From the NCBI RefSeq assembly GCF_007954425.1, contig NZ_CP042345.1, positions 868,001-932,000 of the forward strand: DNA of 64,000 nt, read 5' to 3'. Every line of letters begins with the position of its first letter. Position 1 is the first letter of the stretch. The DNA is from Novosphingobium ginsenosidimutans (GTDB lineage: Bacteria > Pseudomonadota > Alphaproteobacteria > Sphingomonadales > Sphingomonadaceae). Position numbers and translations under genes: made by a program. The notes under the pieces were generated by a model, which saw nothing but the letters and a program-made list of their open reading frames with translations, had not been told where the DNA came from and did no database searches. Shown here one piece after another: positions 34,979 to 63,209 of this stretch.

Positions 34979-35007
34979 TTGATAACATATAAAGATTTCT
35001 TTATATG
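34979..35007 (+). promoter_or_regulatory. Predicted promoter of the ArsR-metF-metH operon, covered by a palindrome
   Basis: TTGATA (34979-34984), a 17-nt spacer and TATATG (35002-35007) resemble a sigma-70 promoter whose start would lie about 5 nt before the ATG at 35018, giving a very short or leaderless mRNA. The 22-bp palindrome at 34986-35007 covers the spacer and the -10, so a bound protein would block RNA polymerase. Confidence 0.5.
34986..35007. promoter_or_regulatory. 22-bp palindromic operator, copy 1 (ArsR-metF-metH)
   Basis: CATATAAAG-ATTT-CTTTATATG is a perfect palindrome; the two central-flank bases also pair, so only a 2-nt spacer is asymmetric. It ends 10 nt before the ATG of the ArsR-methyltransferase gene. 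The same 9-4-9 design recurs at 63188-63209 before metK. I saw no further copy in the window. Size and symmetry suit a dimeric winged-helix regulator. Confidence 0.75.
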
Positions 35008-35017
35008 ATGCGGCAAG

Positions 35018-36004
35018 ATGAAGATCGACCCCACCCTGCGCGCTCTGGCGGACCCAACGCGGCTGCGGATCATGCGGCTGCTCAGCGCTATGGAACTGGC
35101 CGTGGGCGAACTGGCACAAGTGCTCGGCCAAAGCCAGCCACGCGTTTCGCGCCACGTACGGATCCTCTGCGATGCGGGCCTGGCCGAACGCCGCAAGGAA
35201 GGCGCCTGGGTGTTCCTGCGCAGCGCGATTGGCGAAGATCGCGCCCCGCCGCTAGGCGCTGCCGCTGCCCGGCTGCTCGCCGTGGCTGAAGAAGGCGATG
35301 CCGGCTTCGCTGCCCGCTGCGAGGAGGACCGCCGCCACCTGGCCGCGATCCGCGCCGCGCGCGAGACCAGCGCCGCCAGCTACTTTGCCCGCCACGCCGC
35401 CGAATGGGACACGCTGCGTAGCCTGCACAGCCCCGATGGGCCGGTTGAAGCCGCGTTGGGTGCGGCGCTGGGTCATGGCTCGCTTGGCAGCCTGCTCGAT
35501 ATCGGCACCGGCACGGGCCGGATGGCCGAACTGTTCGCGCCGCGCGCCGCGCACGTCACGGGGCTCGACAACAGCCCCGAAATGCTCCGTATCGCCCGCG
35601 CCCGGCTCCAGCACTTGCCGGCCGGTGCCTTTGACCTGGTCCAGGGCGATTTCGCCAAGCTACCTTTCCCCGATCGCAGCTTTGACACCGTGCTGTTCCA
35701 CCAGGTGCTGCACTATGCCCAGGCGCCCGAACTGGTGCTCGCCGAAGCGGCCCGCGTCACACGCCCGAACGGTGTGCTGGCGATCGTCGATTTCGCCGCG
35801 CATGACCGTGAAGAGCTGCGCAGCCTCCATGCCCACGCCCGCCTCGGCTTCACCGACGAGCAGATGCTCGGTCTCTTGAGCGACGCCGGGTTCACCCCGG
35901 CGCCACCGGTTGCCCTGCCCGGCCAGCCGCTCACCGTGAAGATCTGGACCGCGCGCCGTGTGCCGGCGTCTGCCGCCAAACCAACCAAGGCTACCGCATC
36001 ATGA
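35018..36004 (+). CDS. ArsR-type regulator fused to a SAM-dependent methyltransferase domain
   Basis: 328 residues. N-terminal ArsR winged helix (1-90): ALADPTRLRIMRLL, then recognition helix QSQPRVSRHVRIL. No ArsR metal-binding cysteine motif (ELCVCDL type) is present. C-terminal class I methyltransferase (about 120-310): motif I LLDIGTGTGRM (159-169), acidic D184, DLVQGDFAKLPFPDRSFD. Its stop overlaps metF (ATGA). A palindrome lies over its own promoter and before metK. I infer a SAM- or SAH-sensing methionine repressor in which the methyltransferase fold serves as the ligand sensor. An enzymatic activity is not excluded. ArsR-family SAM/SAH regulators (SahR, SamR) are known to me from memory. 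Confidence 0.85.
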   Translation: MKIDPTLRALADPTRLRIMRLLSAMELAVGELAQVLGQSQPRVSRHVRILCDAGLAERRKEGAWVFLRSAIGEDRAPPLGAAAARLLAVAEEGDAGFAARCEEDRRHLAAIRAARETSAASYFARHAAEWDTLRSLHSPDGPVEAALGAALGHGSLGSLLDIGTGTGRMAELFAPRAAHVTGLDNSPEMLRIARARLQHLPAGAFDLVQGDFAKLPFPDRSFDTVLFHQVLHYAQAPELVLAEAARVTRPNGVLAIVDFAAHDREELRSLHAHARLGFTDEQMLGLLSDAGFTPAPPVALPGQPLTVKIWTARRVPASAAKPTKATAS

Positions 36005-36915
36005 ACCAGGCTAGCGAAACCCGCCGCGCCCACGCTTCGCCGCTATTCGCCGGCCTGCCCGGTGATATCGGCGTTTCCTTCGAATTCTTCCCGCCCAAGA
36101 CCGAAAAGATGGAAGAGACGCTGTGGGATTCGGTGCTGACGCTCGCCCCGCTCAGCCCCCGCTTCGTCTCGGTCACCTATGGCGCCGGTGGCACCACGCG
36201 CGAGCGCACCCACAACACCGTTGCCCGGATCGTGCGTGAAACCGGCATTCCGGCCGCCGCGCACCTGACCTGCGTCGAGGCGACCAAGGACGAGATTGCT
36301 GAAGTGGCCGATGCCTATTGGCAGGCCGGGGTACGCCACATCGTCGCGCTGCGCGGCGATCCGCCGGGGGGTGACGCCAAGTTTACCCCGCACCCGCAAG
36401 GCTATGCCAATGCGGTCGAACTGGTGGCAGGCCTGCGCGAGATGCACCCGTTCGAGCTGTCAGTCAGCGCCTATCCCGAAACACATCCCGATGCGGCCAG
36501 CCCGGCAGCCGATCTCGACAACCTCAAGCGCAAGCTCGATGCCGGGGCCAGCCGCGCGATCACGCAGTTCTTCTTCGAACCCGACACCTTCTTCCGCTTC
36601 CAGGATGCCTGCCTGGCCGCCGGGATCGAGGCCGAGATCGTGCCGGGGATCATGCCGGTATCGAACTTTGCCGCGATCCAGCGGATGAGCGGGATGACCG
36701 GTACCGCCGTGCCGGACTGGCTGGGCCACCTGTTCGAAGGGCTGGATGAAAAGCCCGCCGCGCGCCAGCTCGTCGCCGCCACGGTCGCGGCCGAATTCTG
36801 CCGCCGGCTCTATGCGGGCGGCGTGCGCAATTTTCACTTCTACACCCTTAACCGGGCCGAGCTGTCCTACGCGATCTGCCACCTGCTCGGCCTGCGTCCG
36901 GAGCATGCAGCATGA
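36001..36915 (+). CDS. metF: 5,10-methylenetetrahydrofolate reductase
   Basis: 304-residue flavoprotein TIM barrel producing 5-methyltetrahydrofolate for methionine synthase. FEFFPPKTEKMEETLW near residue 25 holds the catalytic Glu; TYGAGGTTRERT, HIVALRGDPPGG and ITQFFFEPDTFFRF are also typical. The ATG overlaps the ArsR-methyltransferase stop, and its own stop overlaps the metH N-terminal half (ATGA), so the three are translationally coupled. Confidence 0.97.
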   Translation: MNQASETRRAHASPLFAGLPGDIGVSFEFFPPKTEKMEETLWDSVLTLAPLSPRFVSVTYGAGGTTRERTHNTVARIVRETGIPAAAHLTCVEATKDEIAEVADAYWQAGVRHIVALRGDPPGGDAKFTPHPQGYANAVELVAGLREMHPFELSVSAYPETHPDAASPAADLDNLKRKLDAGASRAITQFFFEPDTFFRFQDACLAAGIEAEIVPGIMPVSNFAAIQRMSGMTGTAVPDWLGHLFEGLDEKPAARQLVAATVAAEFCRRLYAGGVRNFHFYTLNRAELSYAICHLLGLRPEHAA

Positions 36916-37955
36916 CCCCGCGCGAACAATTCCTGGCCGAAGCCGCCAAGCGCATCCTGATCATTGATGGGGCCTTCGGCACCGAGATCCAGCAGCGCAA
37001 GCTGACCGAGGCCGACTATGCCGGCTCACTCGGCTTGTCGAAGGACCAGAAGGGCAACAACGATATCCTGGCGATCACCCGGCCCGACGTGCCCGAGGCG
37101 ATCCACCGCGCCTATTTTGAAGCCGGGGCCGACATTGCCGAGACCAACACCTTCTCCGCCAACCGGATCAGCCAGGCCGACTATGGCGCGGAAGCACTGG
37201 TGCGCGAGATCAACGTTGAGAGCGCCCGCCTGGCGCGCCGGGTCGCCGACGAATTCGCCGCCGATGGCCGTCCGCGCTTTGTTGCTGGGGCGATTGGCCC
37301 GACCAACAAGACCCTGTCGCTCTCACCCGATGTCAACGATCCGGGCTATCGCGAGATCGACTGGGACGAGCTGGTCGACGTCTACCGCGAACAGGCCGCC
37401 GCGCTGGTTGAAGGCGGAGCGGACTTCATCCTGATCGAGACGGTGTTCGATACCCTCAACGCCAAGGCCGGGATCATGGCGGTGCGCGAGGTTGAGCGCG
37501 AGCTGGGCCGCGAAGTGCCGATCATGCTTTCCATGACGCTGACCGACCTTTCGGGCCGCAACCTCTCGGGCCACACGGTCGAGGCGTTCTGGTATGCCGT
37601 GCGCCATGCCAAGCCCCTGACGATCGGGCTCAACTGCTCGTTCGGCGCCACCCAGCTGCGCCCGCACGTCCGCTCGCTTAGCGCGATCGCCGATGCCGCG
37701 ATCATGGTCTATCCCAACGCCGGCCTGCCCAACGAGCTGGGCCAGTACGACGAGCTGCCCGAAGAGACCGCCGCACTGGTCCGCGAATGGGCCGAGGCTG
37801 GCCAGGTCAACGTGCTGGGCGGCTGCTGCGGCTCCACCCCGGCGCATATCGCAGCGATTGCCAAGGCGGCCAAGGGCCTGCCTTCGCGCAAGATCCCGCA
37901 GCTGGACGCCGCCACCCGCCTTGCCGGCCTTGAACCCTTTGTGATGGCAGCCTGA
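36912..37955 (+). CDS. metH1: Methionine synthase, homocysteine-binding half (MetH-N)
   Basis: 347 residues equal to the N-terminal module of cobalamin-dependent methionine synthase, which binds and activates homocysteine through zinc. [15 protein letters not shown] at the start; zinc cysteines in GLNCSFGA and LGGCCGST. It ends before the pterin domain, which begins in the next gene 4 nt later. The split is clean at a domain boundary and both halves are intact, so this is a functional two-gene enzyme, not a pseudogene. Confidence 0.96.
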
Positions 37956-37959
37956 TCCC

Positions 37960-40584
<2,625 letters not shown>

Positions 40585-40622
40585 CCCTCGACAAGTTAGC
40601 CGCGGAAAGTAGGTTGCTGGCC

Positions 40623-41810
40623 ATGCGCCTGCTGCCCTTGCTTGCCTGCCTGATCCTCGCCGCGCCGCTTCAGGCGCAGGCCCAGCCGCCGGCGACGGTC
40701 GCGGTTCAGTTCGATCGCCAGACGATCCGCCCGGTGCTGGCCGAAGGCCTCGCCGACCGCTCCACCGGGCGTGCGGTAACAGCCGATGATCCCGTGCGGA
40801 TTGCTTCGATTTCCAAGCTGGTCACCACGCTCGGCGTGATGCGGCTAGTCGACCAGGGCAAGCTGGACCTCGATCGCGATGTCTCGGACTATCTCGGCTG
40901 GCCGGTGCGCAATCCGGCCTTTCCGGACCGGCCGATCACCCTCGCCATGCTGCTGTCGCATCGCTCGAGCCTGATCGACGGCGGTGAGCTTTACTTAATC
41001 CCGCTGGGCGTGACGCTGCGAGAGCGGCTGGCGGATCCGCGCGTCTGGGATGCCGAACACGCGCCGGGCAGCGACTGGTTTCACTATACCAACCTCAACT
41101 TTCCGGTCGCCGCCAGCGTGATTGAGAAGGTCACCGGCGAGCGCTTTGACGTGGCCATGAGCCGACTGGTGCTGAAGCCGCTCAAGCTCGATGCCTGCTT
41201 CAACTGGGGCGCAGGGTGCAGCGCCGATGCCTACCGGCGTGCTGTCGTGCTTTACCGCGCCAACGGCGAAGTGGCGCGCGACGATTTGCGCGGGAACCCG
41301 CCCGCTTGTCCGGTATTCCTGGCGGACCGGACAAACTGCGACCTTTCCGGCTACCGGCTCGGCGACAATGGTGCCCTGTTCTCGCCGCAAGGCGGCCTCA
41401 GGATTTCGATGCGCGATCTGGCCAAGATCGGCCAGCTGCTGGCCCGCCAGGGCCAGGGCCTGATCTCCCGCCAGTCCTACGCGCGCATGATGAAGCCGGT
41501 CTGGCAGTTCAATGGCAGCAATGGGCTGGGCGAGGATGGGACCGCCAGCGGCTTTTTCTGCGCCTATGGCCTCGCCGTGCAGCGTCTGGCCGGCAAGCAG
41601 GCCGGGTGCCGGGACGACCCATTCGGCGACGGCGTAGTGCGGTTCGGCCATTCGGGCGATGCCTATGGCCTGAAGAGCGGGCTGTGGTTTGACCCCCGAA
41701 CAGGCAAGGGAATAGCCTTCTTCACCAGCGCAGTGCCGGACAATGCACCGATCGGACGCTCCGCTTTCCTGGCCGTTGAAGAGTCCGTTGTGGAGAGAGC
41801 GGGCTTCTAG
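40623..41810 (+). CDS. Exported serine hydrolase (beta-lactamase/transpeptidase-like)
   Basis: 395 residues with a signal peptide (LLPLLACLILAAPLQAQA). Class C beta-lactamase/DD-peptidase-like fold: SISK in RIASISKLVTT is the nucleophile tetrad, YTN in HYTNLNFP the second motif, and GHSGDAYG the HSG-like third. Four cysteines in the central region may form disulfides. Could be an esterase, peptidase or penicillin-binding-like protein; antibiotic resistance cannot be claimed. In-frame starts upstream overlap metH2 and lack a signal peptide. Confidence 0.85.
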   Translation: MRLLPLLACLILAAPLQAQAQPPATVAVQFDRQTIRPVLAEGLADRSTGRAVTADDPVRIASISKLVTTLGVMRLVDQGKLDLDRDVSDYLGWPVRNPAFPDRPITLAMLLSHRSSLIDGGELYLIPLGVTLRERLADPRVWDAEHAPGSDWFHYTNLNFPVAASVIEKVTGERFDVAMSRLVLKPLKLDACFNWGAGCSADAYRRAVVLYRANGEVARDDLRGNPPACPVFLADRTNCDLSGYRLGDNGALFSPQGGLRISMRDLAKIGQLLARQGQGLISRQSYARMMKPVWQFNGSNGLGEDGTASGFFCAYGLAVQRLAGKQAGCRDDPFGDGVVRFGHSGDAYGLKSGLWFDPRTGKGIAFFTSAVPDNAPIGRSAFLAVEESVVERAGF

Positions 41811-41849
41811 CCCTTCCGCTCCCTGCCCTGCGCGGCTAGGCGCGTCGGA

Positions 41850-43628
41850 GTGACGCGCGACGCCCTTCTTGACCAGCTCCACACCACCTTCGGGTTCAGC
41901 GCCTTTCGCGGGGTGCAGGAACAGGTGCTGGCCCGCGTCATGGCCGGGCAATCGACCCTGGCGATCATGCCAACGGGCGCAGGCAAGTCGCTGACCTACC
42001 AGCTCCCAGCCGTGATGCTCGCGGGGACCTGCGTGGTGGTCTCGCCGCTGATCGCGCTGATGCATGATCAGCTGCGCGCCGCGACCGCCAACGGCATTCG
42101 CGCCGCCACCCTGACCAGCGCCGACATGGACCGGGCCGAGACGATCGAGCGCTTCCGGGCCGGCACGCTTGACTTGCTTTATGTCGCCCCCGAGCGTGCC
42201 AGCCAGCCGCATTTTCGCGAGCTGCTAACCACCGCGCCGCTCAGCCTCTTCGCCATCGACGAGGCGCATTGCGTTTCGGAATGGGGCCACGATTTCCGCC
42301 CGGACTACCGGCTGCTGCGGCCGCTGATGGATGCCTTTCCGGATGTGCCGCGCCTGGCTCTGACCGCCACTGCCGACCGGCACACCCGCGCGGACGTGCT
42401 GACCCAGCTGGGCATTGGTGAGGATGGACTGATCGTCGCCGGGTTTGACCGGCCCAATATCCGCTATGCAATCCGCCACCGCGACAGCCTGCTCCAGCAG
42501 TTGAAGACGCTGCTGGCAGAGCAGCCAGGCCCGGGGATCGTCTATGCGCCCACGCGCAAGAAGGTTGAGGAGTTAGCCGAGAAGCTGAGTGCCGCGACCG
42601 GCCGCCCGGTGCTGCCCTATCACGCCGGGCTCGATCCACAGGTCCGCAGCGCCAACCAGGCGGCCTTCGTCGCCAGCGAAGACATGGTGATGGTTGCCAC
42701 GGTTGCTTTTGGCATGGGGATCGACAAGCCCGACGTGCGCTTTGTCGCCCATGCCGGCATCCCCAAGTCGATTGAGGGCTATTACCAGGAAACCGGCCGT
42801 GCTGGGCGCGATGGCGATCCGGCCGTGGCACTGATGCTGTGGGCGGCGGAAGACTTTGCCCGCGCGCGCCACCGCCTGGCTGAGGTTGAGGAACACCGCC
42901 AGGCGGGTGAGCGTACGCGGCTCGATGCGCTGGCCGCGCTGGTCGAGACCGGGGCCTGCCGCCGCGCCGTGCTGCTGCGCCACTTCGGCGAGGACCCGCC
43001 GCAGACCTGCGGCAACTGCGACAACTGCCTTGATGCGCCCGGCATCGTCGATGTTACCGAACTGGCCCGCAAGCTGCTCTCGGCCGTCTATCGCACCGGC
43101 CAGACCTATGGCTTCGGCCATGTCGAGAAGGTGCTGCTGGGGCAGGAGGACGAGCGGGTAACCGCGCGCGGGCATGACCGGCTGTCGGTCTTCGGGATCG
43201 TTGGCAGCGATGAGGCGCCCTTGCTCAAGCCGCTGATGCGGGCGCTGCAGGCGCGGGGCAGCCTGGTCCCGACCGAGCATGGCGGGCTGGCGCTGGGCGG
43301 CGATGCGCGCGACGTATTGAAGGGTGAGGCCGCTGTCCTGATCGCGCTGCAGCCGCGCCGCGAGCGGTCTGGGCGCAGCGGCCGGCGCGAGCGCGGCGCG
43401 GTCAATCCGGTTGGCAACCCGCTGTTCGAAGCCTTGCGCGAACTGCGCCGCTCACTCGCGGCTGAGGCCGGGGTGCCGCCCTATGTCATCTTCCACGATG
43501 CCACCTTGCGCGAAATGGCCGAGACCCGACCCGCCAACCTTGCCCAGCTGGGCGAAGTCGGCGGCGTCGGGTCCCGGAAATTGGCGGCCTATGGCGAGGC
43601 GTTCCTCGCCACCATTCGCCAGTACTGA
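41850..43628 (+). CDS. recQ: ATP-dependent DNA helicase RecQ
   Basis: 592 residues, GTG start. Superfamily 2 3'-5' helicase: Walker A PTGAGKS (residues 41-47), DEAH (137-140) in IDEAHCVSEWGHDFRPDY, motif VI ETGRAGRDG. Zinc-binding cysteines in ETGACRR and TCGNCDNCLD form the RQC subdomain, and a C-terminal HRDC domain (about residues 525-590) is present. Acts in recombination and fork restart. Confidence 0.96.
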   Translation: MTRDALLDQLHTTFGFSAFRGVQEQVLARVMAGQSTLAIMPTGAGKSLTYQLPAVMLAGTCVVVSPLIALMHDQLRAATANGIRAATLTSADMDRAETIERFRAGTLDLLYVAPERASQPHFRELLTTAPLSLFAIDEAHCVSEWGHDFRPDYRLLRPLMDAFPDVPRLALTATADRHTRADVLTQLGIGEDGLIVAGFDRPNIRYAIRHRDSLLQQLKTLLAEQPGPGIVYAPTRKKVEELAEKLSAATGRPVLPYHAGLDPQVRSANQAAFVASEDMVMVATVAFGMGIDKPDVRFVAHAGIPKSIEGYYQETGRAGRDGDPAVALMLWAAEDFARARHRLAEVEEHRQAGERTRLDALAALVETGACRRAVLLRHFGEDPPQTCGNCDNCLDAPGIVDVTELARKLLSAVYRTGQTYGFGHVEKVLLGQEDERVTARGHDRLSVFGIVGSDEAPLLKPLMRALQARGSLVPTEHGGLALGGDARDVLKGEAAVLIALQPRRERSGRSGRRERGAVNPVGNPLFEALRELRRSLAAEAGVPPYVIFHDATLREMAETRPANLAQLGEVGGVGSRKLAAYGEAFLATIRQY

Positions 43629-44639: not shown

Positions 44640-44660
44640 CAATCTTTATCCCTGTTCAAA

Positions 44661-44702
44661 ACAAAAGCACGCCGGAACGAGGGTGTTGAGCCCTGTTCCG
44701 GC
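44661..44702 (-). terminator. Intrinsic terminator or attenuator between DUF465 gene and terC
   Basis: Read on the minus strand, GCCGGAAC and GTTCCGGC form an 8-bp stem enclosing AGGG/CCCT, followed by a T-rich GCTTTTGTTTTG. It ends about 20 nt before the terC ATG, leaving no room for a promoter in between, so terC transcription must pass through it or start inside it. An attenuator is therefore possible. Confidence 0.7.
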
Positions 44703-44726
44703 GCTGAGGTGGTGGTCAACTTGCAG

Positions 44727-44900
44727 TTAGGTGGGCCGCGGACGGTGCAGCAGACGCGCCATCCGGTCCTTGATCGCCAGCTTGAGCTTCTTAAGCCGGA
44801 TGATCTCGAACGGATCAGCCAGCCGCCGCCGCTGCGCGAGGCGCAGGGCTTCATCAAGCTTCTGGTGGCGCTCCAAAAGACGGAACACACGATCGGACAT
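44727..44900 (-). CDS. DUF465 (YdcH-like) small protein
   Basis: 57 residues: MSDRVFRLLERHQKLDEALR followed by RLKKLKLAIKDRMARL. This matches the DUF465/YdcH family of short helical-hairpin proteins of unknown function common in Alphaproteobacteria. GGGAG stands 9 nt before the ATG. It is upstream of terC on the same strand and follows a long structured leader. Confidence 0.85.
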   Translation of the reverse strand: MSDRVFRLLERHQKLDEALRLAQRRRLADPFEIIRLKKLKLAIKDRMARLLHRPRPT

Positions 44901-44916
44901 GGCAAAATGCTCCCTA

Positions 44917-45100
44917 ATCGAACGGACTGAAGTTCGATCGGATGAGCCGAGCCTGGAGCCCAGTTTCCTTGGGATGGGGGGACAAGGTGTCCGGACCCTA
45001 GGCATCGGCTTCATCCGATGCGGTCCGACATCACGCTGCGCCCTGGCTGGGAAGGGGGGATGGTGCCAGTGCGCCGCGCCAGAGGGGCCCGGTCCCGCAG
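44917..45100 (-). ncRNA. Candidate structured 5' leader of the DUF465-terC transcript
   Basis: About 185-200 nt leader predicted by the promoter at 45106-45134. Stems: GCGC/GCGC plus CTGGC/GCCAG (45038-45074) with a C-rich loop on this strand; a 13-bp bulged stem GGACC, GCATCGG/CCGATGC, GGTCC (44992-45027); GGACA/TGTCC (44980-44992); and ATCGAAC/GTTCGAT (44917-44938). Arrangement and the later pre-terC hairpin resemble a riboswitch plus expression platform. I do not recognise the class. Confidence 0.45.
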
Positions 45101-45105
45101 GACTG

Positions 45106-45134
45106 TTATTAAGACTGATTCGCTCTTATTTCAA
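45106..45134 (-). promoter_or_regulatory. Candidate promoter for DUF465-terC
   Basis: On the minus strand TTGAAA (45134-45129), a 17-nt spacer and TAATAA (45111-45106) give a plausible sigma-70 promoter with a start near 45100. It predicts a leader of about 200 nt before the DUF465 ATG. Confidence 0.45.
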
Positions 45135-45162
45135 GAGTGATTTTTTGGTGGCGCGGATCTGC

Positions 45163-45190: not shown

Positions 45191-45235
45191 TGTGATATCA
45201 GTTTTAATGCTGATCGAATCACAGGGGTCACACTC

Positions 45236-46147: not shown

Positions 46148-46155
46148 CCTGAGCC

Positions 46156-52756: not shown

Positions 52757-52759
52757 CGC

Positions 52760-55087
52760 CTAGTCGTGCTTCCGTTCGCGGGTGGATTGGACCATCCCCG
52801 GCGCGAGGAAGCCGATCTGGGTCGAGGTTACCTCGGCAGCGCGCTTCTTCAACTCGCCTTTCATCTTGAGGTATTCGGTCTCCATCTCGGCTGAAACGGT
52901 GGCGCGCGAATCGGCCAGGGCCTCGCGGAAGTCGGCTCCGTTCACCTCGGCGGCGTCCGCCCCGGCGCGGCGGATCGCGTTGAGGCCAGCGCGGCGCACC
53001 ACGTCTTCCAGGTCCGCTCCGGTGAAGCGCTCGGCCTCCCGCGCAATCGCGCCCAGATCGACATCGCTGGCCATCGGCATCTTCCCGGTATGGATCTTGA
53101 GGATATGCTCGCGGCCTTTGGCATCAGGCGTACCGACATAGACCAGCTCGTCCAGCCGGCCCGGTCGCAGCAGCGCCGGATCAACCAGTCCCGGCCGGTT
53201 GGTTGCGCCGATCAGCACGACCGAGGCAAGCTCTTCCATTCCGTCCATTTCGGCCAGCATGGTGTTGACCACCCGCGCGGTGACCTGCGGCTCGTTGCCG
53301 CTGGTGCCGCGCGCCGGAACCAGGCTGTCGATCTCGTCGATGAAGATCACGCAGGGCGCGACCTGGCGGGCGCGGGCGAACAGGCGCGACAATTGCTGCT
53401 CGCTTTCGCCGTACCATTTGGAGAGCAAGTCCGAGCTCTTGACCGAGATGAAGTTCGCCTCACTTTCCTTGGCGACGGCCTTGGCCAGCAGGGTCTTGCC
53501 GGTGCCGGGCGGGCCATAGAGCAGGAAGCCCTTGGCCGGGCGGATGCCCAGTCGGCGGAACGCCTCGGGATGCTTGAGCGGTAGCTCGATCCCTTCCTTC
53601 AGCTTTTCCTGCGCCTCGTCCGCGCCGCCGATATCGGCCCAGCCGATGTTCGGCACCTGGACCATCACTTCGCGCATCGCCGAGGGCTGGACGCGCTTCA
53701 GTGCCGCGAGGAAGTCGTCGCGGGTAACAACCAGCTTCTCCAGCACTTCAGGCGGGATGGTCTGCGCCTCTAGGTCAAGCTGCGGCATGATGCGCCGCAC
53801 CGCCTCGATTGCGGCTTCGCGGGCCAGCGCGGCGATGTCGGCACCGACAAAACCGTGGGTGGTGCGGGCCAGTTCGTCGAGATCGACCCCGTCACCCAGC
53901 GGCATACCCCGGGTGTGGATGCCCAGCACCTCGCGGCGGCCGCTTTCATCGGGCACGCCAATCACGATCTCGCGGTCGAAGCGGCCCGGGCGGCGCAGCG
54001 CCTCATCGAGCGCATCGGGCCGGTTGGTCGCCGCGATCACGACGATGTGGGAGCGGGCGTGGAGCCCGTCCATCAGCGTCAGCAGCTGGGCAACCAGCCG
54101 CTTTTCCGCCTCGCCGGGGGACTGCGAACGCTTGGGCGCGATCGAATCGATCTCGTCGATGAAGACGATCGAGGGCGAGGACTTGGCCGCTTCCTCGAAC
54201 ACCTCGCGCAACCGCCGCTCGCTCTCGCCATAGGCGCTGCCCATGATCTCGGGGCCGTTGATGGTGAAGAAGCTGGCTTCGCTCTCGTTCGCGACGGCGC
54301 GGGCCAGGCGCGTCTTACCGGTTCCCGGCGGACCGTGAAGCAGCACGCCCTTGGGCGGATCGACTCCCAGGCGCGTGAACAGTTCGGGATAGCGGAGCGG
54401 CAGTTCGACCATTTCGCGCAATTGCTGGATCGTATCGCCCATGCCGCCGACGTCGTCATAATTGACCTCGCCGCGGCTGCCGCGCGCTTCTTCATACTCC
54501 TCGCGCAGTTCGACCTCGGTGTTCTCGTCGATGTGGACGATGCCCTTGGGGCTGGTCGAGACGACGGTCAGACGGATCTGGGTGAGGGCGAAGGCTGGGG
54601 CATTCAGCATCCGCGCAACCTGCGGCGGCATATCGCGCACCGGGGTCTGACCGGTCGTGGCAACCAGATCGCCTGCCACCAGTGGCCGGCCGAAGAAGTT
54701 GCGCTTCAGCGCCTGACCCGGACCCTGCAGGCGCATGTCCTGCTGTGCCGGGGCAAACACCACCCGCGTTGCCGGACGGCTTTCGGCCCGATCGACCTGG
54801 ACGTGATCGCCCGAACCGACCCCGGCATTGGCGCGCTGCAAGCCATCAAGCCTGATGACTTCCAGCCCTTCGTCCTCCGCATAGGCCAGGACCGCGCGCG
54901 CCGCCGTCGAGCGCTTACCCTCGATCGAGACGATGTCGCCTTCGGTAATGCCAAGCCGGCCCATGGTCGCCTTGGGGAGCCGGGCGATGCCCTGCCCGCT
55001 TTCTTCCTGGCGAGCGGCCGCCACCTGCAGCCGCACGGCGCGGGTGCCGGCGTCAGCCGTGACGCTTGCTGGATCCTTGTCGGCCAT
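52760..55087 (-). CDS. Cdc48/VCP-like double AAA ATPase
   Basis: 775 residues. N-domain (about 15-195) with a double-psi barrel plus four-strand part (IARLPKATMGRLGITEGDIV), D1 AAA with GPPGTGKT (252-259) and IVFIDEID (307-314), D2 AAA with GPPGTGKT (525-532) and CVIFIDEIDS (579-588). Sequence matches the archaeal VAT/Cdc48 type rather than FtsH or ClpB. Likely a protein unfoldase. The C-terminus ends in TREREKHD-type charged residues, not the HbYX proteasome-docking tail. Bacterial copies exist but are sporadic. Confidence 0.93.
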   Translation of the reverse strand: MADKDPASVTADAGTRAVRLQVAAARQEESGQGIARLPKATMGRLGITEGDIVSIEGKRSTAARAVLAYAEDEGLEVIRLDGLQRANAGVGSGDHVQVDRAESRPATRVVFAPAQQDMRLQGPGQALKRNFFGRPLVAGDLVATTGQTPVRDMPPQVARMLNAPAFALTQIRLTVVSTSPKGIVHIDENTEVELREEYEEARGSRGEVNYDDVGGMGDTIQQLREMVELPLRYPELFTRLGVDPPKGVLLHGPPGTGKTRLARAVANESEASFFTINGPEIMGSAYGESERRLREVFEEAAKSSPSIVFIDEIDSIAPKRSQSPGEAEKRLVAQLLTLMDGLHARSHIVVIAATNRPDALDEALRRPGRFDREIVIGVPDESGRREVLGIHTRGMPLGDGVDLDELARTTHGFVGADIAALAREAAIEAVRRIMPQLDLEAQTIPPEVLEKLVVTRDDFLAALKRVQPSAMREVMVQVPNIGWADIGGADEAQEKLKEGIELPLKHPEAFRRLGIRPAKGFLLYGPPGTGKTLLAKAVAKESEANFISVKSSDLLSKWYGESEQQLSRLFARARQVAPCVIFIDEIDSLVPARGTSGNEPQVTARVVNTMLAEMDGMEELASVVLIGATNRPGLVDPALLRPGRLDELVYVGTPDAKGREHILKIHTGKMPMASDVDLGAIAREAERFTGADLEDVVRRAGLNAIRRAGADAAEVNGADFREALADSRATVSAEMETEYLKMKGELKKRAAEVTSTQIGFLAPGMVQSTRERKHD

Positions 55088-55200
55088 GGTCCCATCCTGG
55101 TTGCGGCCCCAACAGGCCGGACAAGGGCTAAGCTAGGAACTCGAAACCGGAATGCAAAGGGTACGGTTCCGAGCCGATGTTCGAGCCGGCCAGACTGGAC

Positions 55201-55234
55201 AAAAAGAGAGGCCCGGTCGTTGCCGACCGGGCCT
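55201..55234 (-). terminator. Intrinsic terminator downstream of usp
   Basis: AGGCCCGGTC and GACCGGGCCT form a perfect 10-bp stem with a 6-nt loop; on the minus strand it is followed by CTCTCTTTTTG. On the plus strand the tail is only TTTGGAAGTTTT. It closes a transcript coming from the usp side and separates it from the AAA ATPase gene. Confidence 0.8.
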
Positions 55235-55340
55235 TTGGAAGTTTTGGGAGAGGATGCCTGAAAGGCAGGTTCTAAATGGTGCAGTGCCGCATTTTGTGCA
55301 AGTGCGAAAAGGGCACTGCACGTTGCGTAATTTGCAACAC
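55201..55340 (-). ncRNA. Candidate small RNA or usp 3'-UTR RNA
   Basis: Between the usp stop and the terminator, stem-loops follow one another on the minus strand: GTTGC/GCAAC (55322-55338), a perfect GTGCAGTGCC/GGCACTGCAC stem (55279-55321) with inner TTTT/AAAA pairing, and TGCCT/AGGCA (55255-55267). The region is less GC-rich than coding neighbours. No clear promoter, so a processed 3'-UTR RNA is equally possible. Confidence 0.4.
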
Positions 55341-55450
55341 ACGTTCAGTTAGCAGCAAGCGCCCGGAATTGCTTGCAGTTCAGCACACCCTGGCACAAGT
55401 GATGGGTTGCAGCTGGCCGGCAGACTGGGCTTTAATGCTGCGCCGCACCA

Positions 55451-56236
55451 TTAATGGGTGATCAGCAAGGGCGGCGCCGTCAACTCATCGAGGAAGAACC
55501 GCGTTACGCCGCCGAACAGGAATTCGCGCAGGCGGCTGTGGCTGTAAGCCCCCATCACTACCAGTTGCGCCTCGATGCGCTGTACTTCGCTGGCGAGCGT
55601 CTCTTCCACCGAATTGCCGCAGACCAGTTCCGTAAGTTCGGCCTTGATCCCATGCCGCGCAAGATAGCGCAGCGCGTCAGTCGGCGGGAGGCCCTGCGGC
55701 TTTTCAACTGCAACGGTCAGCACGCGCACATCGCTCGCTCCGGCCAGTAGCGGTACGGCAGCCTTCAGGGCACGAGCTGCTTCGGTTCCGCCATCCAGGG
55801 CAATGCAAACCCGATCAAGCGGCAGCTTCAGCGAAACGTCGTCGGGCAGGGCCAGGACCGGGCAGGAGGCATTGAGCGCCAGGTCTCCCGCCAGGCCACT
55901 GCTGCGCGATACTACCACCAGGTCTGCCAGCTCGCTGCAACGGGCCAAGGCATCAATCTGCGGCAACTCGGACTGGGCAACATCGAAAGGCACATCGTCG
56001 CGCGCCAGCCGGTCGCCAAAGGCTGCAGCCAAGGCATCGTCCTCCTTCAATGCGGTCTCTAGCGCCTCCCGGGCCAGGATCGCGCCGCCGTAGGGATCTA
56101 CCGTCACATATTTGTCGACCGGCGTATCGACCAGCACCGTGACATGCCCATCGTGGGCCCGGGCAAGGTCCATCGCGGTATCCAGCCGCGCGCCCATCCC
56201 GGCATCGCGGCCACCTTGAACAAGAATTGAGCGCAT
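55451..56236 (-). CDS. Tandem-domain universal stress protein
   Basis: 261 residues with two Usp domains: an N-terminal one (MRSILVQGGRDAGMG, then DLVVVSRSSG) and a C-terminal one (RVCIALDGGTEAARAL, ending with VVMGAYSHSRLREFLFGGVT). The second carries the GxxxxxG ATP-type loop. Such proteins accumulate in stationary phase or stress. A strong GGAGAGGGG site precedes the ATG. Longer starts upstream run antisense to the HAD gene. Confidence 0.9.
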   Translation of the reverse strand: MRSILVQGGRDAGMGARLDTAMDLARAHDGHVTVLVDTPVDKYVTVDPYGGAILAREALETALKEDDALAAAFGDRLARDDVPFDVAQSELPQIDALARCSELADLVVVSRSSGLAGDLALNASCPVLALPDDVSLKLPLDRVCIALDGGTEAARALKAAVPLLAGASDVRVLTVAVEKPQGLPPTDALRYLARHGIKAELTELVCGNSVEETLASEVQRIEAQLVVMGAYSHSRLREFLFGGVTRFFLDELTAPPLLITH

Positions 56237-56372
56237 AACCCCTCTCCTTTCATGCGCAGAGGTTACGCCTCGCGCGGGGGAGCGTCCATGATCCCGGTCA
56301 AATCGCGATACTTGCGCCGCGCGCCCGGTTCGGCCACTGCGAAGCGGTCCGAGGATGAGGGAAAGTGCGAAA

Positions 56373-57029
56373 ATGGCAGGCAGTTTCGAAGCCGTGATCT
56401 TTGATTTTGGCGGCGTGATCACCGCCAGCCCGTTCGAAGCCTTCAACCGGCTTGAATCGGAACGCGGCCTGCCGCGCGATTTCGTCCGCACCGTCAACGC
56501 CGTCAATCCGGACAGCAACGCCTGGGCCCTGTTCGAGCGCGCCGCGATCAGCGCGGCCGAGTTCAATGAGAAGTTCGCCGCCGAAGCCAAGGCGGCCGGG
56601 CATGAGCTGGACGGGGCCTCGGTCCTGGCGGTCCTCTCTGGCTCGATCCGCCCGGCGATGGTCACCGCGCTCGACCGGCTGAAGGACGCCGGTTACCGTC
56701 TGGCCTGCATCACCAACAACGTTCCGACCGGTCACGGTGCCGGCATGGCCCGCAGCGGCGACCGTTCCGATGCCTACGAGCAGGTCTTTGCCCGGTTCGA
56801 ACACGTGATCGAAAGCTCCAAGGCCGGGGTGCGCAAGCCCGATCCGCGGATCTACCAGATGATGTGCGAGCACCTGGGACTGGGTCCGGAAGTCTGCGTC
56901 TACCTCGATGACCTGGGGATCAACTGCAAGCCGGCGGCGCAGCTCGGCATGGCCGCGATCAAGGTTGTCAGCGGCGAACAAGCCCTGGCCGATCTCAGCG
57001 CGCTGCTGGGGCTGGACCTGGTCGGCTGA
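56373..57029 (+). CDS. HAD-superfamily hydrolase (epoxide-hydrolase N-domain-like)
   Basis: 218 residues. Motif [10 protein letters not shown] with nucleophile Asp11, motif II ITNN (LACITNNVP), motif III Lys in [14 protein letters not shown], motif [10 protein letters not shown]. Subfamily IA with a helical cap; resembles the phosphatase domain of soluble epoxide hydrolases or acyl-CoA dehydrogenase-associated HADs. Substrate unknown. ATG 56373 has GGGA upstream; an ATG six codons earlier is possible. Confidence 0.87.
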
Positions 57030-57126
57030 CCGGTGCATTCCACGCAACCGTAACGGCGCGGCTTGCAATTGCGCCAGTCGCCCATTGGCCGTAGCGGCAA
57101 CGCGCTTTTTCCAGCGGGGAGCGGGA

Positions 57127-57833
<707 letters not shown>

Positions 57834-57834
<1 letters not shown>

Positions 57835-58493
57835 TGACCAAGCATGATGGATTGGCTCAGGGTTGGAGCCGCGACCAGATGGCCGCCCGCGCCGCGCAGG
57901 AGCTGCGCGACGGTTTCTATGTGAACCTTGGCATCGGCATCCCGACGCTGGTGGCGAACCATGTGCCCGCCGGGATCACGGTGACACTACAATCGGAAAA
58001 CGGGATGCTGGGCATCGGCCCCTTCCCGACCGACGACGAGGTTGACGCCGACCTGATCAACGCCGGCAAGCAGACGATCAGCGAGCTGCCGCATTCGGCC
58101 TATTTCGATAGCGCCCAGTCCTTCGCGATGATCCGCGGCGGCAAGATCGACCTGACCGTGCTGGGCGGAATGGAGGTCTCCCAGCAGGGTGACATCGCCA
58201 ATTGGATGGTGCCCGGTAAGATGATCAAAGGCATGGGCGGGGCGATGGACCTGGTCGCCGGGGTCAAGAAGATCATCGTCGTGATGGAACACTGCGCCAA
58301 GGATGGCAGCCCCAAATTCATCCCCGAATGCACCCTGCCGCTGACTGGCCGCAACGTGGTGGACATGGTCATTACCGACCTGTGCGTCTTCCAGCGGCCG
58401 GATCACCAGTCACCGTTCAAGCTGATCGAACTGGCCCCGGGCGTGACGGCCGAGGAAGTAGCGGCCAAGACGACCGCGCATTACGAGCCTTAA
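57834..58493 (+). CDS. scoB: 3-oxoacid CoA-transferase subunit B
   Basis: 219 residues. [15 protein letters not shown] and the active-site Glu in [12 protein letters not shown] are the family II signature; [20 protein letters not shown] and [14 protein letters not shown] follow. Forms an A2B2 complex with scoA. Its stop codon lies inside an 18-bp palindrome (58489-58506) preceding the nitronate monooxygenase gene. Confidence 0.95.
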
Positions 58494-58506
58494 TCGTTCG
58501 ATTAAG
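58489..58506. promoter_or_regulatory. Palindrome overlapping the scoB stop
   Basis: CTTAATCG-TT-CGATTAAG is a perfect 8-bp-arm palindrome, low in GC for this genome. It sits 58 nt upstream of the nitronate monooxygenase ATG. Form and position suit a TetR/MarR-type operator. No regulator gene is adjacent. Confidence 0.4.
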
Positions 58507-58564
58507 CAGGTATTGCGAGGGACCGTCCGGCGCGTAATGATCGCTCCCGACGAGGGAGAGAATC

Positions 58565-59698
58565 ATGAACAATGCCGTCTGCCGCCTCACCGGGTGCGAA
58601 TTTCCGCTGTTTGCCTTTAGCCACTGCCGTGATGTGGTAGTGGCAGTCAGCAAGGCTGGCGGGTTCGGTGTGCTGGGCGCGACCCGCTTCACGCCCGAAC
58701 AGCTTGAGGAAGAGCTGGCCTGGATCGATGCGCATATCGATGGCGCACCCTATGGCGTGGACGTGCTGGTGCCCGAGATCGTCGATCCGCGCGTGGCCGA
58801 ATTCCAGGATAATGAGCAGCGTGCCGCCGCCATTTCCGAACAGCATCGGCAGTTTACGGTGGAACTACTTGGCCAGTACGGAGTTGATGTCTCTCCGCAG
58901 GAAGTGGTCCGTTACGAGGGCCGCGCCGGGATCACCCCAGAGAACGGCTATGCCCAGATGGAAGTCGCCTTCCGCCACCCGATCAAGCTGATTGCCAATG
59001 CGCTGGGCATCGCCCCGCCGAAGATGATCGAGGAAGGCAAGAAGCGCGGCGTGCCCGTGGCGGCACTCGTCGGCGCCAAGGAGCACGCACTGCGTCAGGC
59101 CGCTGCAGGGGTGGATATCATCGTTGCCCAGGGCACCGAAGCCGGCGGCCATTGCGGCGAGGTTTCGACCCTGGTGTTGATCCCCGAAGTGGTCCGCGCG
59201 CTGAAGGGTGCCGGCTATGACATCCCCGTGTTGGCGGCTGGCGGGATCATGACCGGCGCACAAATGGCCGGGATGATGGCGGCCGGCGCGCAGGGCGCCT
59301 GGACCGGCTCGGTCTGGCTGGCGACGACCGAGAGCGAGACCAGCGAGGCCTTCCGCGACAAGATGGTCGCCGCGCGCAGCCGCGATACCGTGCGCAGCCG
59401 CAGCCGCACCGGCAAACCCGCCCGCCAGCTCAAGACTGCCTGGCACGAAGCCTGGGACGCTCCCGATGGACCTGGCCCGCTGCCGATGCCGCTGATGGGC
59501 ATGGTTTCCGAACCGGCTTTCCAGCGGATCGAGAAGTCGGTGGTCAACGGCAACGAGGCGGCGCGCGATCTGGTCAGCTACTTCGTCGGCCAGGGCGTGG
59601 GTCTGATCGACCAGATCCGCAGCGCCAAGGGCGTGGTCCAGGACTTCCGCGAGGAGTTCGTCGAGGCGATCGGCGAGCTCAACGGCATGCTGGGGTAG
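58565..59698 (+). CDS. Nitronate monooxygenase / FMN-dependent 2-nitropropane dioxygenase-like
   Basis: 377-residue FMN TIM-barrel oxidoreductase. GGFGVLGATRFTPEQLEEEL early, then VAQGTEAGGHCGE, VLAAGGIMTGAQM and GAQGAWTGSVWL are the FMN-binding and phosphate-binding segments. Could detoxify nitronates or act as an NADH:quinone or enoyl-type oxidoreductase. The ferritin-like gene starts immediately after its stop. Confidence 0.9.
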   Translation: MNNAVCRLTGCEFPLFAFSHCRDVVVAVSKAGGFGVLGATRFTPEQLEEELAWIDAHIDGAPYGVDVLVPEIVDPRVAEFQDNEQRAAAISEQHRQFTVELLGQYGVDVSPQEVVRYEGRAGITPENGYAQMEVAFRHPIKLIANALGIAPPKMIEEGKKRGVPVAALVGAKEHALRQAAAGVDIIVAQGTEAGGHCGEVSTLVLIPEVVRALKGAGYDIPVLAAGGIMTGAQMAGMMAAGAQGAWTGSVWLATTESETSEAFRDKMVAARSRDTVRSRSRTGKPARQLKTAWHEAWDAPDGPGPLPMPLMGMVSEPAFQRIEKSVVNGNEAARDLVSYFVGQGVGLIDQIRSAKGVVQDFREEFVEAIGELNGMLG

Positions 59699-60409
59699 AT
59701 GGGCCTGCGCCAGACCTTTCGGGAGCGCTATCTCGACGTCCTGGCGTCGATCTACCTCTATAACGAGCATCGCGGCTACACCTCGCTAGACCGCGTGCTC
59801 GAGGCGGTGCGTGAACGGTGCCCGGAGGAGCCTGCGTTCCAGGCCGAAATCGCCAAGCACCGTGCCGACGAGCGCGCGCATTACCTGATGTTCCGCCGCT
59901 GGTTCGAGCGGCAGGGGCGGATGCCCCTGGAGGTCGATTCTGGCGTCGGCCACATCGACCGGTTTATCCAATGGATCTTCCGCTGCGGAATCGAGGACCT
60001 CGACACCCACCGCATCGTGACCCAGCCGCAGGAGTTTGAACGCCTGTGCCGGGTCATCATGCTGACCGAACAACGCGGATTTCGGCAGGTCGAAGTCATC
60101 CTGAAGAACCGGTTGATCATGTCGGACCCGGTGATGAAGAAGATCTTTGAGATCGTGCACCGCGACGAGCCCGACCATTTCCTGCCCTATCAGCACTGGC
60201 TCGAACGCCAGAGCCGCGCCACCGCCCGCTGGAACGAACGGATGGCTGACTGGTGCATCCACAAGGTGCTGATGCTCTACAAGCTGCCGGCGCTGTTTCT
60301 CGACACCGGCCGGGCGCGGATGGTGCGCTGGCCGGATGAAGGGGAGACTTCGGCCGCTCCATCGCCCTCGCTGGAACGAGCTGCCCTACTGCCGTCACCC
60401 CGGACTTGA
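59699..60409 (+). CDS. Ferritin-like di-iron-type protein with a repeat-derived C-terminus
   Basis: 236 residues. Helical bundle with candidate metal ligands: E23-H24 (NEHRG), DERAHYLMFRRWFER, TEQRGFRQ and HRDEPDHFLPY. A four-helix ferritin-like fold is plausible; substrate or role unknown. It starts directly at the end of the monooxygenase gene, suggesting cotranscription. The last codons and stop fall in the palindromic element at 60392-60484, so the natural C-terminus may have been replaced by insertion. Confidence 0.78.
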   Translation: MGLRQTFRERYLDVLASIYLYNEHRGYTSLDRVLEAVRERCPEEPAFQAEIAKHRADERAHYLMFRRWFERQGRMPLEVDSGVGHIDRFIQWIFRCGIEDLDTHRIVTQPQEFERLCRVIMLTEQRGFRQVEVILKNRLIMSDPVMKKIFEIVHRDEPDHFLPYQHWLERQSRATARWNERMADWCIHKVLMLYKLPALFLDTGRARMVRWPDEGETSAAPSPSLERAALLPSPRT

Positions 60410-60484
60410 TCCGGGGTCGAGCTTCCTTCGAAGCCCAGCGCTTCCCCAAATAGCGGGTCCCCGGGTCAAGCCTGGGATGACGGG
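60392..60484. repeat. 93-nt palindromic repeat element
   Basis: Left end CCGTCACCCCGGACTTGATC... matches the reverse complement of the right end (CCGTCATCCCAGGCTTGACC...) at about 22 of 27 positions, with a spacer of about 35-40 nt. The wording is typical of palindromic repeats that are frequent in alphaproteobacterial genomes. It lies across the ferritin-like stop codon and before the GST gene. Confidence 0.75.
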
Positions 60485-60522
60485 GTTGTGTGGTGTGCGG
60501 CGTGCGGGTTAGGTAGCGACGC

Positions 60523-61206
60523 ATGAGCTACACCCTGATCACCGCCAACCGGAACTATTCCAGCTGGAGCCTGCGCCCCTGGCTGCTGATGAAGGCGCTG
60601 GATATTCCCTTCGCTGATCGGTTCGAACCCTTCACCAAGCCCGACAATTACGAGGATTTCCGTCAGTTCTCCCCCACCGGGCAGGTGCCGCTGCTGATCG
60701 ATGGCGAACGCAAGGTGCCGGATTCGCTCGGCATCACGCTCTACCTCGCGGATCGGCATGAGGGCGTTTGGCCGAGCGATCCCGAGGCGCGGATCTATGC
60801 CATGGGCGCCGTCTGCGAGATGCACGGCGGCTTTGGCCACCTGCGCAATGATTGCACCATGAACGTCGGCGTGCGGGTCACGCCCAAGCCGATGAGCGAA
60901 GGGCTGAAGCGCAATGTCACGCGCGTGCGCGAGATCTTCGAGCAGGGGCTGGAACGGTTCGGCGGGCCGTGGCTGGCAGGCACGGAATTCACCGCCGTGG
61001 ACGCCTTCTTCGCCCCGGTCGCCTACCGCATCCGCACTTACGGGCTGAATGTTGGCAAGGGGCAGGCCTGGGTCGATCATGTCCTGGCCCATCCGGCCAT
61101 GCTCGATTGGGAAGCCCAGGCCCTGGCCGAACACTGGCGCGAGGAAATGCACGAGGCGGAGCTTGCCGCCGCCGGGGTGATTACGGCCGACTATCGCCGG
61201 GGCTGA
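60523..61206 (+). CDS. Glutathione S-transferase family protein
   Basis: 227 residues. N-terminal thioredoxin-like domain (LITANRNYSSWSLRPWLLMK) with the cis-Pro segment GQVPLLIDGERKVPDSLGI and a helical C-terminal domain (FGGPWLAGTEFTAVDAFF). Catalytic Ser or Tyr class is uncertain. Its 3' end overlaps the convergent alpha/beta hydrolase by 26 nt. Confidence 0.92.
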   Translation: MSYTLITANRNYSSWSLRPWLLMKALDIPFADRFEPFTKPDNYEDFRQFSPTGQVPLLIDGERKVPDSLGITLYLADRHEGVWPSDPEARIYAMGAVCEMHGGFGHLRNDCTMNVGVRVTPKPMSEGLKRNVTRVREIFEQGLERFGGPWLAGTEFTAVDAFFAPVAYRIRTYGLNVGKGQAWVDHVLAHPAMLDWEAQALAEHWREEMHEAELAAAGVITADYRRG

Positions 61207-61951
61207 ACTGGCCGAGGTACCACTGCAGCGCGGAGTAGTGCGACAGGCCGGGCAGCAGCTCGAGCTGCGCCCCTGCCGGCAGCCGCGCCGCCAGTGCGCG
61301 GGCCATTGGCGGTGGCACCCAATTGTCCTGATCCCCCTGCCAGATCGTGACGGGCCGGGTCACCTGATCGAGCGCGCGCCCCCAGTCGCTCACATAGTCG
61401 GCGATCTCGGCGCGATAGGCCGAACCGCCGGCCGCGAAGGTCTGGCGCAGGATCGCAGCAAGCAGGGCGCGGAATGCCGGATCGCGGGCCAGCGCGGCGT
61501 CGCCGCCGCGGGTATCGGCCAGCAGCGCCTTGACCAGCAGCGCCGGGGCCAGCCGGGCAGCCAGCGCCTGAACCCGGCACACCAGCGCGAAGAGCCCGGG
61601 CCGATCGCGGGCCGTGCCAAACAGCGCGCCGCCGGCCATATCGGGCAGGAATTCCCCCAACGATAACGGCGCGGCCGGTGCAATCAGGTCGATCCGCGCA
61701 ACCTGTTCGCCCAGCAGCGGAGCGAGCCGCAGGGCAGCCGCACCGCCCAGCGAGAAGCCGACCAGATCGACCGGATCATTGCCGGCCCATTGGGCGATCT
61801 GCCGCGCCAGGGCGGCCCAGCCATCTGCATTGGCGTTGCGATTGGGCGCTAGGACCAGGTCGGCATCAAGCCACGCGCTGTGTGGTCCCGCCAGCGACAA
61901 TTCCGCTGCCGAGCCGGGCAGCCCGTGGAGATAGACGGTGCGACGGGTCAT
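61181..61951 (-). CDS. Alpha/beta hydrolase
   Basis: 256 residues. Nucleophile elbow GFSLGG (near residue 67), an N-terminal YLHGLPGSAAEL oxyanion loop, acid in WQGDQDNWVPP, and His in LPGLSHYS. Substrate unknown; general esterase/lipase-like. The ORF end overlaps the GST gene. It is 21 nt downstream of metK on the same strand. Confidence 0.85.
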   Translation of the reverse strand: MTRRTVYLHGLPGSAAELSLAGPHSAWLDADLVLAPNRNANADGWAALARQIAQWAGNDPVDLVGFSLGGAAALRLAPLLGEQVARIDLIAPAAPLSLGEFLPDMAGGALFGTARDRPGLFALVCRVQALAARLAPALLVKALLADTRGGDAALARDPAFRALLAAILRQTFAAGGSAYRAEIADYVSDWGRALDQVTRPVTIWQGDQDNWVPPPMARALAARLPAGAQLELLPGLSHYSALQWYLGQFSPGDSRP

Positions 61952-61972
61952 CGCCCGCGCCCCTGCTTAGGC

Positions 61973-63178
61973 TCAGCCCAGCGCGGCCTTGAGGTCGTCA
62001 ACCAGGTCGGTGCGCTCCCACGGGAAGAAGTCACCCTCAGCCTTGCGGCCGAAGTGGCCATAGGCGGCGGTCGGCTTGTAGATCGGCTTGTTGAGGCCAA
62101 GGTGGGTGCGGATCGCGCGCGGGGTCAGGCCGCCCAGCTTGGGCAGGCCAAGGATCGCAGCTTCGATCTTGTCGTCGCCAACCGTCCCGGTCTCATGCGT
62201 ATCGACGTAGAGCGAGAGCGGTTTCGACACACCGATCGCATAGGCCAACTGGATCGTGCAGCGCGTGGCAAGGCCCGCGGCAACAACGTTCTTGGCGAGG
62301 TAGCGGCTGATATAGGCGGCCGAACGGTCAACCTTGGTCGGGTCCTTGCCCGAGAAGGCGCCGCCGCCGTGCGGGGCCGCGCCGCCATAGGTGTCGACGA
62401 TGATCTTGCGGCCAGTCAGACCGGCATCGCCATCGGGGCCGCCGATCTCAAAGCTGCCGGTCGGGTTGATGAAGTATTCAGTCTCGCGCAGCAGTACCGG
62501 CGGGATGACTTCGGCGACGACGCGCTTCACATAGGCGTGGAGTTCGGCTTCCTTTTCGCCCTCGTCATAGCCGGGGGCGTGCTGGGTGCTGACCACCACG
62601 GCGGTGGCGGCAACCGGCAGGCTGCCTTCATAGCGCAGCGTGACCTGGCTCTTAGCATCGGGTTCCAGAAACGGGGCCGCGCCCGAGTGGCGATCGGCAG
62701 CCATCTTTTCCAGGATCTTGTGGCTGTAATAAAGCGTCGCCGGCATCAGATCGGGGGTTTCGTCGGTCGCGTAGCCGAACATGATGCCCTGGTCGCCGGC
62801 GCCTTCGTCCTTGTTGGCATTGGCATCCACGCCCTGGGCGATGTGCGCCGACTGGCCGTGCAGGCGGTTGATGAATTCGAACCGCTCCCAGTGGAAGCCG
62901 GACTGGGCGTAGCCGATGTCCTTGACGGTCTTGCGAACAGTCGCCTCGATCTCTTCCTTAGCGCCGGGGGCCCATTCGCCGTCCTCGTAAACGCCCTTGC
63001 AGCGGATTTCGCCGGCCAGGACCACCAGCTGGGTGGTGGTCAGCGTTTCGCAGGCGATGCGCGCTTCGGGGTCCTTCGACAGGAACAGGTCGACGATCGA
63101 ATCCGAGATTTGGTCAGCCACCTTGTCCGGGTGACCTTCGGAAACGCTTTCGGAAGTGAACAGGTAATCGGTGCGCAT
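61973..63178 (-). CDS. metK: S-adenosylmethionine synthetase
   Basis: 401 residues converting methionine and ATP to [23 protein letters not shown] holds H16, D18 and K19 of the ATP/metal site; [28 protein letters not shown] with the phosphate-binding loop, and a complete C-terminus follow. ATG at 63178 (GAGGA 5 nt upstream); a GTG just before it is unlikely. A palindrome identical in design to that of the ArsR-metF-metH promoter lies 9 nt upstream of the ATG. Confidence 0.97.
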
Positions 63179-63187
63179 CACGTCCTC

Positions 63188-63209
63188 GATATAAAGGATT
63201 CTTTATATC
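63188..63209. promoter_or_regulatory. 22-bp palindromic operator, copy 2 (metK)
   Basis: GATATAAAG-GATT-CTTTATATC: arms are 9-bp perfect complements and the spacer is 4 nt, as in copy 1 at 34986-35007, with the same ATATAAAG core. On the minus strand it stands 9 nt before the metK ATG, just after the lnt stop. A protein bound here would block a metK promoter or initiation. Confidence 0.75.

Follow-up and report, generated by a model that had tools for sequence, protein, structure and literature searches.

Known SahR regulons and the locus studied

SahR is an ArsR-family regulator that responds to S-adenosylhomocysteine (SAH) and recognises a 20-bp palindromic site, with a core regulon made up of sahR itself, ahcY, metH, metH2, metF and metK (Leyn 2014, PMC4239095). 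The regulon was reconstructed in seven of seven Sphingomonadales genomes in that work (PMC4239095, Table 1), and SahR regulons in 62 genomes were reported by a 2016 survey (PMC5343134). Here we describe two palindromes in a 64,000-nucleotide stretch of the Novosphingobium ginsenosidimutans genome (contig NZ_CP042345.1, positions 868,001 to 932,000), referred to below as the window and used for the numbering of all positions given without a contig or locus name. One palindrome precedes an operon that encodes an ArsR-type fusion protein, MetF and a split MetH, and the other precedes metK. By definition SahR includes a C-terminal methyltransferase-like sensor domain. Both palindromes are very probably operators of SahR, an ArsR-family repressor with an SAH sensor domain that would act at three promoters of this genome, a reading drawn from sequence comparison to which we assign a probability of roughly 0.94. 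The regulon is already known and its regulator already named, and the case is an ordinary, well-conserved one.

The locus resembles the published SahR regulon in the family of its regulator, the 20-bp palindromic operator, the predicted autoregulation of the operon, the metF, metH, metK and ahcY targets and its occurrence in Sphingomonadales, and no departure was found in a comparison of these features (PMC4239095). The two metH genes present here may match the metH/metH2 pair of that work. SamR, a related regulator confined to Xanthomonadales in the same study, likewise targets methionine and S-adenosylmethionine (SAM) synthesis, including metK. Its motif is of 24 bp and its regulons contain no SAM-cycle gene besides metK, whereas the core found here is of 20 bp and ahcY is targeted (PMC4239095), and identification of the window protein as SamR was rejected on these grounds. 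In the rhizobial Ensifer aridi LMR001, the strain with the highest sahR expression was the one deleted for sahR, and 1023 is given there for the gene, which we read as bp and which fits a fusion protein; in a comparison of targets rather than motif letters, bhmT is among those of the Ensifer regulator, unlike here (PMC8877191). A literature search for SahR with Novosphingobium or Sphingomonadales did not yield SahR among the matches listed.

Probable palindromic operators in the window and across the genome

The first palindrome, CATATAAAG-ATTT-CTTTATATG, occupies 34986-35007 (20-bp core 34987-35006) and ends 10 nt before the ATG of sahR at 35018, upstream of sahR-metF-metH. The second, GATATAAAG-GATT-CTTTATATC, occupies 63188-63209 (core 63189-63208) and lies 9 nt from the ATG of metK at 63178, or 6 nt from an alternative in-frame GTG at 63181. 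Both are perfect, with arms complementary at 9 of 9 bp, and the sites have in common the 20-bp core ATATAAAG-N4-CTTTATAT, extended to 22 bp by an outer pair. The first-pass annotation, made from the letters of the window, had given these coordinates and a spacing of 9-10 nt to the start codons, and both were correct.

At up to three mismatches the window contains these two sites only, and no match was obtained in 100 dinucleotide shuffles. The whole genome (3,118,872 bases) yields exactly three matches at this threshold, all of them perfect, where a first-order Markov model from the window (65.6% GC) predicts 2e-6 perfect matches per genome and 0.19 at up to three mismatches; the reversed pattern, used as a control in the same genome, gave none. 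The earlier expectation that chance recurrence would be improbable is thereby borne out. The third copy (G000:C1:2338044-2338063) lies outside the window, 97 nt before the likely GTG start of ahcY, the gene for S-adenosylhomocysteine hydrolase, which was named from its sequence and not by a family scan. The three sites head sahR-metF-metH, metK and ahcY, and no other place in the genome carries the motif at up to three mismatches; copies at random positions, which would have spoken against a shared regulator, were not met with.

The probable regulator and its likely ligand

The product of sahR (35018-36004, forward strand) is a fusion protein of 328 residues that joins an ArsR-type helix-turn-helix domain (residues 12-57; HTH_5, E 3.6e-13) to a methyltransferase domain of class I (residues 160-256; Methyltransf_11, E 1e-27). 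In an alignment of 124 SahR rows, 103 of them distinct and the window's own included, the stretch QSQPRVSRH (residues 38-46) is identical throughout except in one row at V43, and it is likely to be the recognition helix. The residues LD-GTGTGR (160-161 and 163-168), which form the SAM-pocket loop of the fold, are identical in all 124.

The helix-turn-helix domain is labelled 'metalloregulator' by the broad NCBIfam model NF033788. Metal sensors of the ArsR/SmtB type bind their metal through a cysteine pair or cluster, and other types of metal site exist. Cysteine occurs in the window protein at just two positions, 51 and 101, and there is no CxC, so that the generic label is probably misleading; a metal sensor identity was rejected by this criterion, which covers cysteine pair and cluster sites.

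A methyltransferase-fold sensor could hold either SAM or SAH, and it is conceivable that the same regulator and operators respond to SAM acting as co-repressor, an idea put forward for SamR of Xanthomonadales because SamR regulons contain no SAM-cycle genes besides metK (PMC4239095). The presence of metK among the targets is shared with SamR regulons (PMC4239095). However, ahcY is also targeted here, which favours SAH over SAM as the ligand, and the nearest named relatives belong to Sphingomonadales, for which it was SahR and not SamR that was reconstructed (PMC4239095). We therefore regard a SAM-responsive regulator as unlikely, and SAH, by analogy with the described family, as the probable ligand of the window SahR.

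Position of the sites in relatives

The sahR loci of relatives (the nearest 80 kept of 351 found) come mostly from Novosphingobium and other Sphingomonadales, with a few carrying only broader labels. A site with up to three mismatches precedes sahR in all 80, the match being perfect in 75 and off by no more than one position in 78. Sets of 30 loci were then taken for each of the three promoters from 61 genomes as best protein matches, all from the same genus and with the window's own included. For sahR, 29 of 30 loci have the site at up to two mismatches (28 perfect) and the remaining one has three mismatches; for ahcY it is found in 30 of 30, with 28 perfect. The metK site is present at up to two mismatches in 29 of 30 loci, 27 of them having at most one mismatch and 2 being perfect, and the sole metK locus without it belongs to a genome, G019, that also lacks SahR. 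For other families only the single best site per genome was fetched, from 23 genomes, and it precedes sahR in 13, metK in 4 and ahcY in 4 (21 of 23). In the other two genomes the gene behind it is metE (L018) or one for adenosine deaminase (L014).

Within the genus, operators at metK (L113-L142) are almost always one step off perfect, with a left arm ACATAAAG, and only 2 of 29 are perfect. Such imperfect operators could possibly reflect binding tuned to be weaker at metK.

Eleven genomes of the same genus were chosen for having more than three matches, and in eight of these (G003, G009, G011, G014, G015, G018, G027 and G028) the sahR site is accompanied by a second operator at a distance of exactly 30 bp. 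In the 80 sahR loci, a second site at exactly -30 was found in 4 at up to four mismatches. Two sites 30 bp apart, or about three helical turns, suggest cooperative binding. The other extra sites in these 11 genomes are two perfect ones, in G002 at a metE-like gene and on G023:C103, a short contig with an ahcY-like piece, and four matches with two mismatches (two in G003, one each in G028 and G032), which were taken as chance.

Co-occurrence of the motif and SahR

Among 61 genomes, the organism's own and 60 relatives, motif (up to two mismatches) and SahR (E up to 1e-20) are both present in 59, and the other two, G019 (completeness 92%) and G060 (85%), lack both. Each of these retains metK and, at least in part, ahcY, and in G019 the two genes are adjacent. 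A riboswitch replacing the operator was looked for in their metK and ahcY loci (L131, L220 and L221), where no Rfam match was found. At two mismatches the reversed control finds a match in 2 of the 37 genomes belonging to the genus and 14 of the 24 from other families, so that single two-mismatch matches in the latter mean little; at up to one mismatch, 23 of these 24 have the site and G060 has none.

An order-wide sample of 196 genomes was counted by hand with stricter thresholds (motif at up to one mismatch, SahR at E up to 1e-30). Motif and protein were found together in 171, SahR only in 12, the motif only in 5 and neither in 8 (Fisher p 2.6e-6, a value that ignores relatedness). Restriction to genomes with a completeness of 90% or more and a contamination of 5% or less left 173, for which the counts were 157, 11, 0 and 5 (p 3.6e-6, again ignoring relatedness), with three of the five double absences belonging to one genus. 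The first order-wide SahR search had scored at most 11 candidates per genome; the absences were confirmed by a re-search with all candidates scored, which gave a match at E up to 1e-20 in none of 14 genomes (the 12 order-wide absences outside the set of 61, together with G019 and G060), with a query that matches in 59 of those 61. Five near-complete genomes of the same family (G063, G066, G136, G164 and G199) are without SahR and have no site at up to two mismatches. Four of them have none at three mismatches either, and G164 has two at three mismatches (control 1).

A number of observations weigh against the assignment of these sites to SahR. Chance matches do occur at two mismatches in AT-richer genomes, and the reversed control at one mismatch still matches in 11 of 196. 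Twelve of the 196 genomes have SahR and no site at up to one mismatch. In seven of these twelve (G074, G189, G190, G195, G197, G200 and G209) a site with two to three mismatches lies within about 75 nt of the sahR start; G186 and G205 have no site even at up to three mismatches, G064 and G193 have one at this threshold, though not near sahR, and G147 carries three such sites that were not placed relative to its sahR. In the opposite direction, no SahR was found in the five motif-only genomes, all of which are 66-77% complete. The 30-locus sets consist of closest relatives and are not independent, the letters of the published alphaproteobacterial motif are in a figure and stand outside the comparison, and the case for the window organism itself is built on sequence together with a described family.

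It could be argued from this that the palindrome is bound by another transcription factor and that the ArsR fusion is merely the product of a neighbouring gene, since adjacency alone is no proof of binding, the attribution to SahR is made from sequence and some genomes have the motif or SahR singly at the thresholds used. Such a factor would, however, have to come and go with the SahR orthologue across the 61 genomes and to have its site at the head of the SahR operon in 80 of 80 loci, and an ArsR-family regulator with the same target set has been described (PMC4239095); we consider this explanation very improbable. The first-pass annotation had proposed a single regulator for both sites, namely the ArsR fusion encoded by the first gene, and this part of it is supported by the comparative evidence. 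It did not identify the regulon as the one already described for SahR, and ahcY, its third member, escaped it, lying outside the window.

Promoter geometry and proposed mechanism

A putative sahR promoter is formed by TTGATA (-35, 34979-34984, forward strand) and TATATG (-10, 35002-35007, forward strand), the latter situated 17 bp after the former and inside the right arm of the operator. In 79 of the relatives' 80 sahR loci a TTG stands 5-9 nt ahead of the core, and in the second set, which includes the window's locus, 24 of 30 have it at exactly -8. The sahR operator would accordingly fill the spacer and the -10, with transcription starting a few nt before the ATG. At ahcY, a TTG directly follows the core in 19 of 30 loci, which indicates that the operator abuts the likely -35, and TAG or TAAG comes 23 nt later in 17 of 30. 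At metK, 19 of 29 loci have a CTAG in the 30 nt preceding the core, compared with a control mean of 0.14 of 29 per window, and this would place the operator near the transcription start; a looser count of CTAG-like sequences (29 of 29) used a permissive pattern and was not relied on. An automatic promoter scan gave no sigma-70-like pair for either metK or ahcY; at sahR it gave another pair (ATAACA/TATGAT) than the one proposed here, and the geometry consequently rests on columns conserved in relatives. The overlap of the operator with the likely sahR promoter fits repression, and the placement at all three promoters would suit a repressor.

The right arm of the sahR operator probably also serves as a -10, and these AT-rich palindromes might be taken for -10 sequences or RNA hairpins that are alike by chance, a reading that is hardly credible and is refuted by the genome-wide distribution, in which three of three perfect copies fall on one pathway against the 2e-6 expected, while both arms are kept at metK and ahcY, where the likely -10 lies elsewhere, and neither window site has an Rfam match.

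A riboswitch at the two sites was also rejected, the Rfam scan of the window giving only two matches above the gathering score, both far from either site: the suhB/mmgR small RNA (55195-55273, reverse strand) and the terC cis-regulatory RNA (45016-45100, reverse strand). Elsewhere in the genome no match to SAM_alpha or SAH riboswitches was found among only 150 candidates scored, in a search in which control genomes were also silent.

By analogy with the described family, a SahR dimer would bind the 20-bp core at the promoters of its own operon, of metK and of ahcY. While SAH is low, it would block RNA polymerase at sahR, where the operator covers the spacer and -10, as well as from an operator just after the likely -10 of metK and one just before the likely -35 of ahcY. 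Methylation raises SAH, which would then bind the sensor domain and cause SahR to leave the DNA, allowing the whole cycle to be made. AhcY would split SAH, MetF and MetH would remethylate the homocysteine and MetK would remake SAM.

Genes of the sahR operon and metK

The genes downstream of sahR are tightly packed on the forward strand. The start of metF (36001-36915), encoding 5,10-methylenetetrahydrofolate reductase, overlaps the sahR stop by 4 nt, and an overlap of the same length joins it to metH part 1 (36912-37955), the homocysteine-binding S-methyltransferase module, which corresponds to residues 10-354 of the 1234-residue MetH model. After a gap of 4 nt follows metH part 2 (37960-40584), with the pterin-binding, B12-binding and activation domains (residues 354-1230 of the model). 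Methionine synthase is in this way split into two adjacent genes (36912-40584), the break falling where the homocysteine module meets the pterin module. The S-adenosylmethionine synthetase gene metK (61973-63178) is on the reverse strand.

Possible extensions in relatives and meaning of the regulon

In two relatives a perfect SahR-type operator is followed 27-28 nt on by a cobalamin riboswitch, before metE in one (L018:1501-1756, G046) and before a metE-like methionine synthase gene in the other (L215:1501-1781, G002). Both metE and metE2 are listed SahR targets in other taxa (PMC4239095). In a third relative (L222:406-425, the same site as that of L014; G048) about 9 nt separate a perfect operator from the start of a downstream gene for adenosine deaminase that is cut by the contig end, an arrangement seen in this one genome. 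The term 'adenosine deaminase' is absent from the main texts of PMC4239095 and PMC5343134.

It is a tentative proposal, with odds that we put a little below even, that the Sphingomonadales SahR regulon extends in single lineages to metE or metE-like genes, with SAH acting at initiation and B12 through the leader, and also to adenosine deaminase, which would pull the reversible AhcY reaction. Operator and cobalamin riboswitch together would represent two inputs on B12-independent methionine synthesis, and adenosine deaminase under SahR would remove the adenosine made by AhcY.

The evidence argues against reading the window protein as an ArsR metalloregulator and does not point to a new kind of system. 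The genome offers a clear example, with three sites, of a regulon already known, and the co-occurrence ties the motif to SahR in Sphingomonadales. The relatives with metE and a B12 riboswitch, and the one with adenosine deaminase, may represent small, testable extensions of it.

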